Shown here in pieces: positions 1,370 to 19,300 of a stretch of 30,836 bases of DNA. This DNA comes from Saccoglossus kowalevskii. Lineage: Eukaryota; Hemichordata; Enteropneusta; Harrimaniidae. Position 1 is the stretch's first letter. The number at the start of each line of letters is the position of its first letter. The notes under the pieces are model-generated. The model was given only the letters and a program-made list of their open reading frames with translations, was not told the origin of the DNA and made no database searches. The stretch is from positions 60,786 through 91,621 of the forward strand of contig NW_003124896.1 in NCBI RefSeq assembly GCF_000003605.2, in the 5' to 3' direction. A program made the translations under genes and the position numbers.

Positions 1370-4300
1370 GTAAGTACAGGGTTCTGAAGTTTTATTTTAC
1401 CAGTTTTGTTATGATATAAACTGATTTAAAGCGGGATGGTCATCACCTGCGCACATGCAGGAATTGGGTCCCAAGCGACGATAACAACACATGCTAAAAA
1501 CGCATAGGCTCATGGGTAGACCCCTGTTTGTAAACAATGAAACACTATGGCCATCTGATGCATGCGCAGGTGACGACTCCCCCGCTTTAACCTCAACTTG
1601 TTTGAAGAAAGTTCACATTAATTGTTATAAGGGTTGTGACAGACAAGTAGTATGACGAAATTCTGTATGACTGAGAACTTTATTTTGTTTATTTCGTAGG
1701 AAATAAATCACTGACTTTCGAAAAATATCTTTCGCATGTCAATGCCCTCAATTTATCAAATTGTAAAAATTTCTGGTAGCAAAAAATATATTTGCCCAAT
1801 GAATATTATTGGATTTAGCGAATTTTTAATGTTAATCAAAAGTTGTGTTTGGAAGATGATAATTTGACTACTTTTGACAATTTGTCATTGCAACATTTGT
1901 TTGTTGTGTTTAACAGGCTGCACAGAAGACAACTACATGGCTATTAACTGCCGGTACAAATCTTGGAATCGTCAAGGCAGTGGGAGATGCTGTCCAGGAA
2001 GGACAGCGTATGCAGTGGGTCGGCGGTAAGGTTAAACGAACTCTACGATGCCTTGGTATTGCATCATGGGGATACACTGAAGACCATGATTGTTTAATCA
2101 GTCCAAACAGCAAGGTAACTTTAATGGATTTATGCTGTCTATCGACAGTTGTATTGTAGTAAGTCTTGATTTTGGCAATTGGAATATGAAACCCGGACAG
2201 GTTTTCATTAAGGGCAAGGCGTTGATAGTTTGACTATGTTCTAATTTCAGGGACTATACCAAGCAAATGTTACACTAACATCTGCTGGCCAAAATGCATA
2301 ATCCTGACATGATTTCATTAAGGGCAAGGCGTTGATAGTTTGACTATGCTCTAATTTCAGGGACTATACCAAGCAAATGTTACACTAACATCTGCTGGCC
2401 AAAATGCATAATCCTGACATGATTTCATTAAGGGCAAGGCGTTGATAGTTTGACTATGTTCTAATTTCAGGGACTATACCAAGCAAATGTTACACTAACA
2501 TCTGCTGGCCAAAATGCAAAATTCTGACATGGTTTCATTAAGGGCAAGGCATTGATAGTTTGACTATGCTCTAATTTCAGGGACTTTATCCAGCAAATTA
2601 CAAAGTGAACCCTGTAATAAAGCGAAACCATCCTGTTCCACTGAATCCGGAACACACTCATTTTATTCTAGTAGACGATGGAACTGACTTGAATTATAGC
2701 GTTGAACTGAATCTTCGAGCCGAGATAGAGAAAATTATTGCTGCACCGATCAATCCAGATGACCCTGAAGGTATGTAAATAAAAATAGATGAAATGATTG
2801 TATTCCAATTGAAGGTTTGGTTTCAGAAACAAGGAAGAAGAAGAAGAGAAGGTAACATTTAATTTTTGGGGGATGAACTACAAATAATGGTCTTTATTAC
2901 CAATTGCCAAATACATACATGCCCTGCCAATTTACCTTGTACGATATGTTGATCATATTTGCATAAATGTGACTATGGTTTGGTCATCAGTTCCCATGGT
3001 TTGGTCGTTGGTAACCATGGTTATACCATAGGCAAGCATGCATGTGGTTGGGTCATAGGTAACCATGGTTGGGTCAATGGATTGACACAAAGTGTATTTC
3101 TTTCTGATGTTTCTTTATAAAATAATATACTTACCTGTGTAATTATCAACTTAACCATCACATTTCCATGACTTTTGCAACATTATTTTTTTATTTCATT
3201 TATATATATATATTTTGTATCATATAATATCTCAAAATTTTGTTTGCTTATATATTTTGTAAAATTATCTGGTTATAAGATATCAACATTTGATTGTCAC
3301 CAATTAATAGAAAATCTGGTGAATACGTTTGATATTAAATGGATAATACCAGTGTTGAATATTGTAAAATTACAAACTTTCAGTTTTCTTTAATAGTTCA
3401 ACTTTGTATATTTTGTAAAGGATCGGGATTGGGTGTTCCTGTTGCTATGTTATTGGTCGAAGGTGGTGTAGACGCCATACGTACTGTCTGTCAAGCGATA
3501 TCCCGTGGTATTCCTACGGTTATCTGTGAAGGTACCGGTAGAGCGGCTGATATACTGGCATATGCACACAATAATTGTGTTGTAATGAAGTAAGTTGATT
3601 TTTCCCTTTTTTCTTGGCATTATTTGTCTGTAATTTTTGTTGATTTTGTTTAAATTTATGGTGGTTGAGTTAATGGTAATTACAGTTTTAAACCAACTTA
3701 CCATATTTTCTCCATTATTAGTGCTCACCAACCCAAAATTCCAAAACAGGGACTTCACTTCTGTGTGTGTGACTGCATGTGTACGACAATAGCTGTAGCT
3801 ATCTATTTTTTTTCCTTCTGATTTATGTTTTAAATAAAATATTTCCTGTGTCGTCGGGGTCAATTTGTTATGGTCGTTATGGACTATGAAAGCATAGCAT
3901 ATTTAGCTTTTTACCAATGTCATACATCACTTGCAAGTAAAAAAAGATGGCTGGGATGTTGCACCCAGGTCTACAGAGGGCGCCATCTATTGAAATCAAA
4001 TTTAGTCAAGCAAACGTCAGGAATTACAGTACAAAATGACAACATACCACGACCCTGGGCGAAATGTATACTTTGCCACTGTAGAGGCTGAATCCCTTTC
4101 TAACAGCAACTCACTGATAATTTTTTGTGTCATTTAATTTAATAGTGTGTGTTGTGCATCTTAATATTCTATGACTGATTTCAACAAAATGGTGACTACT
4201 CGACCCTTAGTTTTCACATAACATTTTATGTGCAGGTGTGAACTTGTGTACGATCACTTTGCCTATGCATTTGTGTCTAAAATAATATGTTGATAAGTGG

Positions 4301-7300: not shown

Positions 7301-10300
7301 TGAATAAAAAGATTACCTCATTCATTACATTGGTGGATATGACTAATATTAATAATATAATATCCTTACAGTGTGAAGCAGACAGCAACTTTAGAAAAAT
7401 TATGAGATCACTTACAAATTCTAAGGTAAGAATGAATAAGGCGAGTGAGTGTATTTACTGTGAACCCAATTAATTATTCGCTGGTTTTAAATTTCGCTAT
7501 TTTTGTTAATAAGTGAAATTCGCTGAATTAAATCTATGTGAATTTGTACAATAACAAAAGAACTCATTGTTATCTTGCCAAGTTCATGAACAGAAAATCT
7601 AGTGAAATTACTCTAAACTTCAAAATTGTGAAATTAAATGTCAGTAAGGCTTCACAGTATTAGTAGTATGTATATTTGCGTAAATGATAGAGGTGAGTAC
7701 TTTAATGATCCAACATACAATAAAATATATTTTTAGTACCCGGTACTAGTATATTGCGTACTTTTATTTGAAATGCATTTCTAATAGAGCAAAGACACTA
7801 CCGGGGTATATACTGTTTTCCCCTTGGGTATTCGTTCCGCTGTCGTGATGATATCTTCAATTCTCTAATTTATAATAGTATTGACTTCTTGTTAAAAACC
7901 ACAAGTTCGATTACTTCGATATTATACATATAGGTACCTCAGGTGGAATTTTCTCAGATTTGTTTATTTCATGATAATATCTTCAATTCTCTAATTTATA
8001 ATATTATTGACTTCTTGAACCACAAGTTTGATTGCTTTGTTATTATATTATGCATATAGGCACCTCAGGTAGATCTCTCTCAGATTTGTTCATTTCATGA
8101 TGATATCTTCAATTATCTAATTTATATAATATTTTTGTCATTTTTAGTAAAAAGTGATATTTTTGACTTCTTGTTAAAAACCACAAATCAGTTTGCTTTG
8201 ATATTATACATCTAGGTACCTCGAATGGACCTCTCTCAGATTTAGTCATTTTGTGATGATATCTTCAATTCTCTAGTTTTGATGAATATTTGTCATTTTT
8301 GGTATAAAGTGATGTTTTTAGTCCCCGGGGACTTATGTTTTGACCTCCGTGTGTCTGTGCGTGCATCTGTGTGTGTGTGTGTGCGTGCGTGCATCTGTGT
8401 GTGTGTCCGGACCTATATCTTAGAAATGCCTGGACCAATCACAATCAAACTTCGCACATACATCGTTCATGATATTGTACATATGCACGTCAATTTGTTT
8501 CACGATCTGATTCAAGATGGCCGAATGGCGGCCATTTTTGTGCTAAAAATCATCAAAATCAAGCGTTCCTCGGCTGTTTACAGATGGATTTTGTTCAAAC
8601 TTGGTTTATACATTATACATTATAGGATTTTGATGCACATCATTTTGTTTCACGATCTGAATAAAGATGGCCAAATGGTGGTCATTTTTGTGCTAAAAAA
8701 TCCTACAAATCAAGCATTTCTCAGCTGTTTACAGATGGATTTTGTTCAAACTTGGTATATAAATTTGACATTATAAGACCTTGATGCAAATAATTTTCTT
8801 TTTCAGATAAGATTCAAAATGGCCGTATTTTGTATTAATGAATGTGGTTCTCGTGCCATATCGCTGACTTGCTTTCACTGATTATGTTCAAATTTTAAAT
8901 ATTCATTATACATCATGTCATAGATAGACAGATGTATTGGTTTGATGATCCTATTCAAAATGGCCAAATGGTGGCCATTTTTGTGCTAAAAAAAATCATC
9001 AAATATCAAGCATTTCTGGCATTTATGAATGGATTTCATTCAAACTTGGTACATGCATTACACATTACGGGTTCCTGATGCACGTCATTTTATTTGTCAG
9101 ATTAAATTCAAAATGGCTGACTGGCGGCCATTTTGTTTTAATGATTGGGCTTCTAAAGCCATATCTCTTAAATGCTTTGACTGATTATATTAAAATTTTG
9201 TATATTCGTTATACATCATGTTATATATATACATGTATTCAAAATGGCTGATTTTGAATGCTGTTTCAGAGCAATATCTCTCAATATGGACAAGTACTTG
9301 TTTTACGATCAGATACAAATGTCAATGTTAGAAAATAATATTCCTGACATGGGTATATTCCAACTATATTACTATAAACAAAACTATATATCTTAAATTT
9401 GATAACTAACGGGGACTGTGCCATGCATGGCTAGTTGAATTCTTGTTAAAAACCACAAGTCCGATTGCTATGATATTATATTATGCATATAGGCACCTCA
9501 GGTGGACCACTTTCATATTTGTTCATTTTGTGATGATATCTTCAATTCTCTAATTGGAATGTGCATTGCTAACAGCGGAGCTATCTCAGCCAAGAAACTG
9601 CTTGTTTTCATACATTATAAAAGTTTTTCATTTTCATCCAACATACACCTGAGATATCAGTGTGTAAGTGTTCTATAAAGTTGTAAAATATATTAAGGTA
9701 GAGGCCTGCTCATGAATGCAAATACAAAGAATGCAAAGAATTTATTCATTTTTCAATAAATTGTTCTTCTGGGCAATATAATTATATTGACTTGTGTTTG
9801 GGGTCATCAGCTTATTTTTCGAGAAAAATGATGGTTGTATTTTAGTGGATAGTGGCCATTTTGGCAGTACAGTGTATTATTATAATAATAGTGATTTTAC
9901 CATAGGTTCCTATGACAGAGATATTATGCCATATCTCAAACTGTAGGCTGAAAATTATATAATGGGGTACTTTCTGTTGTCCTCAATAATTTAAAAAATC
10001 TGGGGTTGAAAAGTGTCAATAAATGCAATTATTAGTGATTTTTGAAGAATACTAGTTTCTCAAAAATACGTCACTGTAACATACAAAATAATGCTATTTC
10101 ACAGTGCCATGAGACATTAACTTAATGATTTTACATAATAAACTAATTAACATTCGCATGTGATTTATGACAAACTTCCTCAAAAATTAGGAGTAGGCTC
10201 CTACCTTAAGTGGTTATTCCGTAAGTACAAAATGCTGAACTATGCTGTATTATATTTAATTCAATACTTGAACTTAAACATTACCAGAAAAGCTTGATTC

Positions 10301-13300
10301 TTTTGGCTGGTTGATGTAAATATTTAACAAACTGACACATTTTACCCAAATATTAATTAATACTGTGATATTATCTTAAACGGATAAATGTATTTTTCAA
10401 ATGGTAGAAAAAAGGTCCCTTTACTCTACGTGATGTTGGTCAATGTATTAGAAAAATTGTGGGTGCACATTACGAGCCACTGTATTTGAGAGACAGGAAA
10501 TTTAGAGGCACCAGGCGAGATGTGAAGGCATTGGTAGCACTGTCAGTCAACTTAACAGGTAGGAATTTTAAAGTACATGTGTTTACAATAGTTTTGTCAT
10601 ATCCTCTCTAATAAATCCATGCAACTTACAGGTCAGGTGACATATCATGTCCAATGCATTTTAATCTGTATGTGAATGACTTGAATGATACATTAAAAGA
10701 TTCAGTAAACCAGGTAGCATTAAATAATTATAAAATTAACTTTCTACTTCATGCGGATGGCCTAGTATTGATTTCAACAACACAATTAGATTTGCAAAAT
10801 GCATTAAATAAATTATCTGTGTACTGCCACAAACTCTAGGTAAATCTTAATAAAACCAAAACATCTTTAGAAGACAGAATCTGTAAGCAATGTTCCCAGA
10901 TCAAAATTGAAAATGAAATGAAATGAAGGTACCGAACAGAAAGACAAAAGTTATTTAATAATATCAATATTCCAGAAGAATTAAAAAGTGTTGTTCAGAT
11001 ATTTAAATATATTATGAGTTCATGAGAAGACGTACTAATAAGACAAGTTGGTCAATACAAAATATTTGAAATCAGAAATAACAAACTGACATTTTACTTT
11101 AGTTTTATATGTATTGTACTTTATTACTAACATTTTGTTGCTGTCTATCAATGGAAACTATTTCTAGGGATGCAATAAATTCATTATTATTATATTATGT
11201 GAAAAGTCAGGTGACATCATTTCAAGCAAGAATATAAAATACTGTTGTTCAAAAACACATCTGAATCTGAATCTTGCTCATCAGAATTTCAAGCTCGAAA
11301 AGTAGGTCCAGAAAGTAACAGACAGATTTTAATGAAACTTGGTATAAACAAAAAAAAAAGCATTTTATTGTTAAATTTGCATATTCATTTTTAATTTAGC
11401 AATCTGCAAAATAAAAAACCCAGCAAATAATTAAGTCTTATTATTTGACCTTTGACCCTTTCAGGTATGGGAATTGTGCACAAAGCTCAGCAGGAATACC
11501 TCAAATCAGAGAAGATGGAAGAGAGACATACCGAGGAGGATGATGATGATGATGATGATGATGACTTGGAATATCTCAGTTCATTTCAACTTACTAATCC
11601 AGGCATGAATTTTGAAAAACCATATCGAGAATTGTTCATATGGGCTGTACTCATGGGCAGGTAGGATATTTTCAGCTTTTCTCGAAAATGAATGACAGAT
11701 TCATTATTGGGTGAAATTATGCAGGATATTAACAAGTTTATTCTAATTTTATGTTCTGTAAACCACTCAATTGTTGCCGCTATCATCAAAATTTGGGAGT
11801 TTTGAAGGGTTTTTGGATACAACATTTCACAAATATTTCTCATACTTGCTGTCTGAATAATCAAAATGAAATGTTCACTGATGCAAAATGTTGTCATTTT
11901 CTTTAATTTGTGAAATTTGCATAAAAAATGTACAGTTTATTAGAGTGGATTTTAGAATTTCCATAAAAGTGATATTGTCTGGAAAATCGTGTGCAACCAC
12001 ACATACAGTGGAAATCAATTCAACTTGGTAGTTCAATATTAGCAGCATACAGCACTTTGTTTTGTTTGGTGATTAACTTAAACAATAATCGGAAGCTTGG
12101 AAGTTCACTCGGAGAGAGAGTATCAATGAGGATCTGTCATCAAACAGGTGGTGCATGTTTATCAACACCGAGTGACAACTAGTGTGATTTCTTACATTAA
12201 GAGTAATCAACTTCAACCATGGTATTAATAATTATCATCATTGTAATTTATCATATGATTTATTACCATAGAGATGTAGCAATATAGCTCGCAATTGCTT
12301 TTGTTTACTTGTATTGTAATTAATTATTCACTGGGTATTAATTACACTATTTTTGCTGATAGGTAAAATCCACTAAATCAAATCTATGTGAAAATGTAAA
12401 ATAAAAGTCATTGTTTCTTTGACAAATTTGTGAACTTGAAACCCAGTAAATATGCTCAAGATAGAGAAAATACATTTTTGACTTTTATATAGTTTCATAT
12501 ATCCACCTAAACCTTGTATTATCACTCACATTACATAATATAGAATGGATTTGGCGGAATTTCTGTGGGAGTATGGTGATGAAGCAATATCTTCTGCCAT
12601 TGCTGCTGTGAAAATCTTTTCTGATATGGCTTATTTGATGAGCAATCCAGAAGATAAACAAAGTTATCTAGAGAATGCTAAGTAAGTAATACTTCAATTA
12701 AAATAAAAATTACATGCTGAAAAATAAATATGAATTAATAACCGTTATACCTATTTTCTGCTAGAAAATTTGAGCAGCTGGCTGTGAATGTGTTAGATGA
12801 AAGTTACAATTGCGATGAAACTTTAGCTGGGATGTTGATTGAGAGGAGACATACAAACTGGGGTGGTATGAATATATTAAATATGGCTGCCGAGGCTGGA
12901 TGCAAGGTGAATACTTCAATGATAGACATCACATTTTAGTTTTTATCGCACTTTTGTTTATAATTAAAGGATTCAACAGCATATTAACAACATCAACCAA
13001 CATATAGTAGATGCATACGTACTGTCTGAGTTGTTTTGAAACATGTCCACCATTTTGAAAATACAGGTCTGTGTTATTTTGTGATACACTGTGGATGCAA
13101 AATATCAATTTATAATGATTTTAGTGATAATAAGTCAACACAAACCCTGTATTATACTCACATACTTAATTGCCACCATAAAATTAAATTAAATATTTTT
13201 AACTTTGCAGGCATTTGTATCCCACCCGTGCTGTCAAAATCTTCTGAATCAGATATGGCAAGGTGGTATATGTTCATCTCCGACTGAGGTAAGCAATAGA

Positions 13301-16300: not shown

Positions 16301-19300
16301 TGGCTTGTTGTTATTATTCTAACAGTCTGCTAACTTTCTTTAACGAATGGTTTTTCTTCAGCATTTACTAGGAAAGTACTCTTTATTTGTTCCAACAATA
16401 CTGATTTACGAGGAAAACAACTGTTTTTCAGAATTTTTTCAGAACATGACTCAAGTAAAGAGTGCAACATTTCCCTCAATATTAAAAATAATTCAATTTT
16501 TAAACAACACTCTGGATTCAAACCAATGATTTTCAGATCAGATAACGTGCATGCATGTTCACTCGACTGAATGAGCTGAGCAGTGGTTTGTGGTTGAAAA
16601 GCATACATGTAGTTTTAATACTATGATATGTATATGAATCAGGTGTGATTTCTACAGGTCATTGGTTTATTCTTCTATGCAAAAAGAGTTACATAAAAAA
16701 ATGTACGCAACACGCAACCCGTTGACTGCAAAAAAAAAACTCTTAAAAGCCACTACATTGGCAGTATTACTTTGTTAAAGTACGGCAACTTTAATGCTTA
16801 TGGTAGTTAACAGGGTTGAGGTTCTAGTAAATGTCTGTGGCACACTTAACAGAAATTAAAAATTTAGGGCAGGGCTTGACTGTTTACTAGAACCTCAACT
16901 TCAAACAAGACATTATTAAACTACTGTTAGTGTGCCTCATAGCCGTATTTTAACTATCAGTTAACTGTTACATGTACATTAGTAATTACACTCACAATAT
17001 GAATACAACCATTACATTAGCATTTTACGCTGCATTAAACACAGAGATATTGTTTTCTCATCACAAATTCACAAAATAGTCCCGTTTATAGTCTGCACTT
17101 TCCATAAAAAAATTGGGGCAAAAATACCAAATTTTTTTGAGTAAAAACTGAAAATGGACTCAAATTTTGTCTGTAGGCTCCAAAATTTTATTTCCAGAAA
17201 TATTGAAGAAGATAAGAAAAAAGTGCAGACAAATTTGGGCAAGAAAGTCTGGTGGTGAAAAAAAAGGAATAAATGTATGGGTCACATGGTTAAGAATGAT
17301 ATAACTCGCATAATAATTAAATTAACAATTTGTTTATATCATTTAACAGTCACTGATACCGGAAGAGCATGAATCTGTTGACCAAAATCTCAAGAAGTGG
17401 GCCAGTAGTTGGTGGAATATAATGGACTTTCTGTCAATAGCACTGGCAATTAGCGGTTTCACTCTACGATGGTTTGAACCCACATTTGAAGCAGCAAGGG
17501 CTCTGTATGCTGTCAACTGTTCCCTGTTTATTCTGCGCATCATGAGGATGTTTTCACTGAACAGTACACTTGGTCCAAAACTCATCATGATTGGCAAGAT
17601 GGTAGGTTGTCCACTGAAACTATTGCCTTGTTATGAGCTGGCTCAAACTTAAAAATACAAATTTTTATTCATTTATTTCTATCAACACAACAAACTAATT
17701 CTTTTTATTTATATAAATATCTATAAATGTCAATGGCTGTTGAAATCCAACCAGCCTACTAATGAACATGTGACATATTGACATTACTTGAAAATGTTCC
17801 AATGTTTATTTCATGGGCCAATAGAAACCTCTTGTTTCAGTTTGGATTTTGAAATTTATAAATATTTGTTTGAAAGCAATGATATTTTTGACTTTTTCTT
17901 GAAAACTATAGCTCAATTGAATTGATATGTTGGTACCTTGGATGGACTTCTATTAGATTAGTTTCTTCTGTGCATCAGGGGAACACTCCAGGCAGGCTCT
18001 GCTGAAACATCAGAGCTATTTTGACGATCAGGTTACTTGTTTACTATAGCAAAAAAGAATTTAAAGTTTAGAAAATTTAGTGTGTTTGTTTCTTTCAGTT
18101 AATAGAGATGATGTTGTTCCTTGTCATACTACTGGTGTTCCTCATCAGCTATGGCGTGGCATCACAGGCATTGCTATACCCAAATAGACGCACTGCATAC
18201 TGGGGAATATTCAGAGATGTTGTGTATATGCCATATTTTCAAATCTATGGAGAGTTATTCCTTGAAGAGCTTGATCCTCATTTCGGTGAGCTTTACAGTG
18301 TACCGGTATATCATTTTCAACATTTTATACAACTTGAGTTTGAGTGATGAAAGTTACATCCAGGATGAGCTGCAAACTTATGATCTTCCAGTGATGAGCT
18401 TTTAGTTATTCAACTTTGCAGTTAAAAAATTATGAACTAGGTGATATACTACCAGTATTGGATTAGTTTAGTGCATATTCGCTAATGTTATGTACATGTA
18501 CATGGCCCACAACTCAAGCAATCACAAATTTACAACAAGTGACTACTGTAAAATACTTTATTTCCCTTGGAATTAAATTTTCGCTAATTTCACTGAAGAA
18601 ATGGTTCAGTGAAAATAAAATCCAGCGAATATACCTTTTTTTCTATATTTTATATTCAACTCGTCAGAAATCAGTGAAATAAATTCTATAAAAAACACCC
18701 AAAAAGTTTTTTCAGCAAAAATTAATTCCAGCTATTAAAATAAAGTATTTTACAGTAATTGGTCAGCACTTCAAATACTGGTACTCAATAATTCTTCATC
18801 ATCATCAATTATTCATATAATTAAATATGGTTCAAATTTAAATGTACTGTAAATGCATTAATTATTCACAGTTTTTTTATTTCAATATTTCTGTTGATAA
18901 GTAAAATTTGCTAAATTGAATCCATGTGAAAATGTGGAATAATAACAGAACTCATTGTTTCCCTGTAAATGTCCATGATTTTAAAAGCCAAGAATATTGC
19001 TAAAAACATCAAATTAGTGAAATTAAATTGCAGTAAAAAAAAAAATTTACAGAATTGCTTTAAATTGAATTTAAATATTATTTTTTTTCTGTTTTAGTTG
19101 ATGGCGAGAACCCAGTATGTGATGCCAGTAGTGTAGACCCCACACAGAGCTGTTCTACGGGACACCCGTTAGTCCCTCTATTATTGGCTGGTTATCTAAT
19201 TGTCGGGAATGTATTGTTACTTAATTTGCTTATTGCTATATTCAGGTAAGTGTAAACTCCTCCGATCAAACAAATAAAAAAGATTTTGTATTTTTTTTTG

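Follow-up and report, generated by a model that had tools for sequence, protein, structure and literature searches.

Tandem copies of a 3' splice site in front of a TRPM exon form a mirage-type minisatellite

Results

A Tandem Array of Acceptors Precedes an Exon of a TRPM-Family Gene

An exon of an animal TRPM-family channel gene is preceded by three near-identical copies of its own splice acceptor, and the resulting array belongs to a kind that has already been named and described, the tandem repeats over intron-exon boundaries called "mirages" in amphioxus (PMC3087553). We consider it likely that this mirage-type minisatellite leaves the true acceptor at 2580 dominant, with the upstream copies little used and the number of copies variable.

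The window, i.e., the whole stretch of 30,836 nucleotides that was analyzed, covers part of the gene, whose start lies outside it. The SLOG in TRPM domain (PF18139) scored above its cut-off in the open stretches 1160-1387, 1914-2114 (E = 4.2e-10), 2575-2772 (E = 3.3e-9), and 3339-3593. The TRPM2-like domain (PF25508) was found above cut-off in 12742-12939 and below it in 11449-11664, and Ion_trans was found just above cut-off in 17347-17652. Seven exons (E1-E7) were modelled with lengths of 73-198 nt, as well as six introns of 259-1125 nt. Exon numbers refer to the window, so that "exon 3" is the third exon there. The GC content of the window is 31-35%, compared with about 41% in amphioxus, which hints at a different animal, and Rfam and tRNA scans of the window yielded no matches. 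The features at the array, all on the forward (+) strand, are the following:

1917..2114, +, upstream TRPM exon ("exon 2"), 198 nt, SLOG (PF18139), donor AAG|GTAACT, boundaries set by eye
2115..2580, +, intron holding the array, 466 nt
2196..2598, +, 110-bp array, mirage-type minisatellite, 3.7 copies (TRF; direct repeats)
2197..2268, +, unit 1: about 54 nt of intron end, acceptor 2250, 18-nt pseudo-exon head; left edge approximate
2269..2306, +, first linker copy, about 38 nt, no homology detected to exon 3 or the left flank
2307..2378, +, unit 2: intron end, acceptor 2360, pseudo-exon head
2379..2416, +, second linker copy
2417..2488, +, unit 3: intron end, acceptor 2470, pseudo-exon head
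2489..2526, +, third linker copy, with changes that shift the stop from codon 17 to codon 19
2527..2598, +, unit 4: true acceptor 2580, then the initial 18 nt of exon 3
2581..2770, +, real TRPM exon ("exon 3"), 190 nt, GLYPANYKVNP... (PF18139; 6co7 alignment)

Several other features were observed in the window. Further tandem arrays with periods of 126, 151, and 303 occupy 7846-9233, in the interval from the TRPM exon at about 6534 to the one at about 10408, and none of them was seen to touch an exon. After the exon at about 10408, an RVT_1-like reverse-transcriptase fragment (10615-10839; E = 4.7e-4, below the curated cut-off) is probably a retroelement remnant. A GAT repeat of 8.7 copies at 11539-11564 lies in frame within the open stretch 11449-11664 and presents a coding microsatellite that encodes an aspartate run.

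The Unit Joins an Intron End, an Exon Start, and a Linker

TRF reported the array with a period of 110, 95% matches, and 0% indels, and its score of 729 is the highest among the 12 TRF rows of the window. Direct repeats at a spacing of 110 were also detected, and the best 110-nt self-match of the window, with offsets of 20-400 compared, was found at offset 110 from position 2203 (109/110). The sequence CTAATTTCAG is present directly before the splice point in four of four copies, ending at 2250, 2360, 2470, and 2580. The duplicated acceptor with 110-bp spacing that a preliminary description of this DNA had proposed is thus confirmed, and its coordinates were exact. Each copy also carries the branch-like motifs TTGAT at -26 and TTGAC at -18, and has 12 pyrimidines in the 18 nt upstream of the AG, compared to 10-16 in 15 other acceptors of the gene.

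The repeated part comprises about 54 nt of intron (to -54) and 18 nt of exon (to +18), whereby a linker of about 38 nt joins the units. Of the 54 intron positions, 4 deviate from the true site in copy 1, 2 in copy 2, and 3 in copy 3. The pseudo-exon heads read GGACTATACCAAGCAAAT in all three upstream copies and GGACTTTATCCAGCAAAT in the real exon, so that 15 of 18 nt are identical; by chance this is expected at about 9e-7, a value that holds for a fixed register and base composition alone and for a test chosen after the match had been seen. Aligned over +1 to +18, head and exon scored 24, whereas the best of 2000 shuffles reached 22. Past +18, 24 of 33 positions in each upstream copy depart from the true site, and thus homology to the exon is not seen beyond this point. 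An alignment of the third linker copy with exon 3 from +19 also detected no homology (p = 0.27, 0.48 [local] and 0.51 [global]). The earlier view that the heads derive from exon 3 therefore holds up to +18, where the resemblance becomes undetectable. The linker (2269-2306) likewise scored no better against the left flank of the array (2115-2201) than shuffled sequence (score 13.0, shuffle mean 13.9, p = 0.64), and the unit was therefore rejected as a plain duplicate of the left flank of the intron. With the array-adjacent part of the flank removed, p rose to 0.99, and 271 of 333 other pieces of the window scored as high. A search for copies of the unit elsewhere in the window gave short, weak matches only.

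Within the last 48 intron nucleotides, the four copies vary only at -30 and at -12, the latter being T, C, T, and C in order, and further upstream they vary at -62, -58, and -49. In the 110-nt register from -74 to +36, units 2 and 3 differ at a single position, whereas against these two, unit 4 shows 18 and 19 differences and unit 1 shows 15 and 14. The unit 1 differences lie, with one exception, upstream of -48, where this unit meets unique flank; from -48 on, copy 1 is identical to copy 3 and differs from copy 2 at -12 alone. The near-identity of inner copies, for which recent expansion or homogenisation had been suggested before, is supported.

Upstream Acceptors Open Short Frames

Among the four acceptors, a TRPM frame that matches known channels is opened from 2580 only. 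This frame (GLYPANYKVNPVIKRN...) aligns to solved TRPM channels, and its best structural match is the TRPM2-like channel 6co7, from the G of the exon onward (E = 4.8e-8). The frame opened by 2250 and 2360 is GLYQANVTLTSAGQNA, with a stop at codon 17 after 16 sense codons, and the one opened by 2470 stops at codon 19 after 18 sense codons. Splicing to these sites would give exons of 520, 410, or 300 nt instead of 190 nt, in which the premature stop lies 469, 359, and 243 nt ahead of the exon end, respectively. Hence, the claims that sites 1-3 run into a stop within 16-18 codons and that they do so within the SLOG region both stand, the premature stops falling between two SLOG domain stretches.

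No good GT donor was found in 2251-2580, where the best score is 0.39, compared to 3.99-12.35 for the 12 modelled donors when each was left out. The donor matrix was built from these 12 hand-read donors, and E8, E9, E10, E13, E15, and E18 were not used. As the copies lack a good GT donor, a cassette-type poison exon is unlikely, and the earlier suggestion of poison exons fails in this sense; a rare GC donor alone could close such an exon. A simple possible consequence of the copies is alternative acceptor use with a premature stop. Just inside intron 2, a cryptic donor GTA|GTAAGT was noticed at 2159 (score 5.54, on a donor matrix with one donor offset by a base), the use of which would place a stop at the junction.

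Local Signals Do Not Favor the True Acceptor

The acceptors were scored with a matrix from 15 hand-read other acceptors of the gene, which is noisy (left-out scores from -4.04 to 9.23). It omits the true E3 acceptor on purpose, as well as E8 and E13, whose boundaries are unclear. Sites 1 and 3 scored 2.91 and sites 2 and 4 scored -1.21, a gap that comes wholly from the T or C at -12. The four sites rank 164th or 469th when set against 1512 AGs that were not used for training, and all four are surpassed by an AG at 2148 (4.9). The matrix is too small for these differences to be pressed, and all that it establishes is that the copies are no weaker than the true site. Nevertheless, since sites 1 and 3 lie ahead of the true site and site 2 is level with it, local strength does not favor the true site, and context must decide if 2580 dominates. 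The likely reasons for such dominance are exon length and exonic enhancers. Under intron definition, the 136-nt intron that ends at site 1 could be preferred, and the lengths of the six modelled introns speak neither for nor against this mode. An RNA structure that would hide the copies was not found in 2115-2620 (fold z = -0.61; 26 of 100 shuffles at least as stable). Recursive splicing was rejected because it needs an acceptor followed by GT, and all four sites read CAG|GGA.

Discussion

Comparison With Amphioxus Mirages and Human Cases

All three features of mirages that can be tested by sequence were found in the TRPM array. It crosses the exon-intron boundary at 2580/2581; it carries the splice signal in every unit, where the cited parts of the mirage papers give this for many units and not for all; and its inner units are homogeneous with distinct boundary units, as in BflGb6. 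As far as the cited passages go, the BflGb6 array has units of 150-160 bp that combine the 3' end of an intron with the 5' part of exon 2, numbers 6 copies in one haplotype and 3 in another, and has homogenised inner units, the boundary units being excluded (PMC3087553). Globin RT-PCR and Adh3 data are said there to suggest that regular splicing is undisturbed (PMC3087553), and the TnC and Adh arrays are said to yield no aberrant mRNA (PMC3902484). Repeats in PGBD5 have been likened to mirages, with units of 60 bp (2 or 7 copies) and 108 bp (3 or 6 copies) in two sequences; normal splicing is the inference of the authors in this case, and one public gene model takes the repeats for an exon (PMC3902484). 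The described amphioxus mirages (BflGb6, BflGb9, Adh3, and TnC, with PGBD5) thus share with the TRPM array the tandem repetition over an intron-exon boundary. A copy number that varies between haplotypes or cells also belongs to the features of mirages. The reported globin and PGBD5 units of 60-160 bp bracket its 110 bp, whereas those of Adh3 are given as shorter (10-72 bp). In contrast to them, the TRPM array lies in another gene and perhaps in another animal group, and is known from the DNA sequence of one haplotype. None of the titles on such arrays among the matches listed names TRPM, which is no proof of absence.

Two human systems are comparable in part. In CBS 844ins68, an intron 7/exon 8 junction is duplicated and the distal site is strongly favored, according to the passage cited (PMC2630376). 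As in the TRPM array, equivalent splice sites stand in series there, two in CBS; the passage speaks of donor sites, whereas a title in its references speaks of a 3' splice site. CBS has one extra copy of 68 bp and the TRPM array three extra copies of 110 bp, and the preference for the distal site is stated for the former, while for the latter it is our inference. In human segmental duplications, novel introns can arise from boundary repeats, and for 66% of the intron modifications due to such repeats there is also a transcript that retains the repeat, as reported in the part cited (PMC2812944); boundary repeats thus need not be silent. These cases resemble the TRPM array in the minisatellite expansion at splice boundaries, but they were scored from intron-gaining transcripts, their units average 30 bp, and splicing was often changed.

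Origin and Use of the Copies

The array suggests that a tandem duplication took in the end of the intron together with the beginning of the following exon, that the duplicated segment then gained the linker of about 38 nt, and that the array was expanded and homogenised via unequal crossing-over or gene conversion. The last copy is still joined to the real exon, and thus the coding sequence is preserved. Acceptor 2580 most likely takes nearly all splicing, because it is the sole site that gives an exon size typical of the gene (190 nt, against 300, 410, and 520 nt) and because coding selection would retain exonic enhancers. The upstream copies would most likely be used at a low level, giving early-stop transcripts that undergo nonsense-mediated decay. 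The array is probably nearly silent in splicing, and its copy number probably varies between individuals.

It might instead be that the extra acceptors are used substantially and that array length, through early-stop transcripts, tunes the amount of TRPM channel. The motifs shared by all four sites, the higher scores of sites 1 and 3, and the stops far ahead of the exon end would suit such a copy-number rheostat, as would the altered splicing at human boundary repeats (PMC2812944). Nevertheless, we regard it as unlikely, since normal mRNA is reported for the published mirages and for CBS 844ins68 in the passages cited (PMC3087553, PMC3902484, PMC2630376), and strong upstream use would presumably be costly and selected against. 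Quite unlikely, too, is the version in which a length-variable acceptor array outside lancelets acts as a rheostat, with more copies giving more premature-stop TRPM transcripts, so that individuals or somatic clones differ in channel dose.

It is very unlikely that the extra copies are an assembly artefact from collapsed or stuttered reads. The single difference between units 2 and 3 would suit such an error, and for BflGb6 a mirage with an aberrant assembly has been reported (PMC3087553, passage cited). However, the copies vary at -62, -58, -49, -30, and -12 and their heads are three bases off the real exon, which stutter would not yield, so that at least one real duplication would be needed.

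The units could also act as poison cassette exons if the acceptor of each were paired with a GC donor. Three GC-donor-like AGG|GCAAGG sites indeed lie in the array units after 2323, 2433, and 2543 (GC from 2324, 2434, and 2544), and would give 73-nt exons with a stop. With no GT donor above 0.39 in this region, this is highly improbable, as GC donors are rare and AGG|GCAAGG departs from their consensus AG|GCAAGT. There is hardly any chance that the copies are decayed whole-exon duplicates reduced to their heads, in the manner of mutually exclusive exons: they start like the exon, but they show no detectable exon 3 homology past +18 and lack a donor of the kind that ends an exon, and with 110 bp the unit falls short of the 190 nt of the exon. 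A whole-exon duplication was rejected because homology past +18 was not detected, and the full-length homologous exons with donors that mark a mutually exclusive exon cluster were not found.

Implications

Four near-identical acceptors behind one donor present a natural experiment on the choice of 3' splice sites, and junction counts at this array would tell whether order, strength, or exon definition governs acceptor choice. Should the animal lie outside the lancelets, the TRPM array would show that arrays of the mirage type also occur beyond the cephalochordates, which would be worth noting, and it would offer an early point on the path from mirage to new intron that is proposed in PMC3087553, in the part cited.
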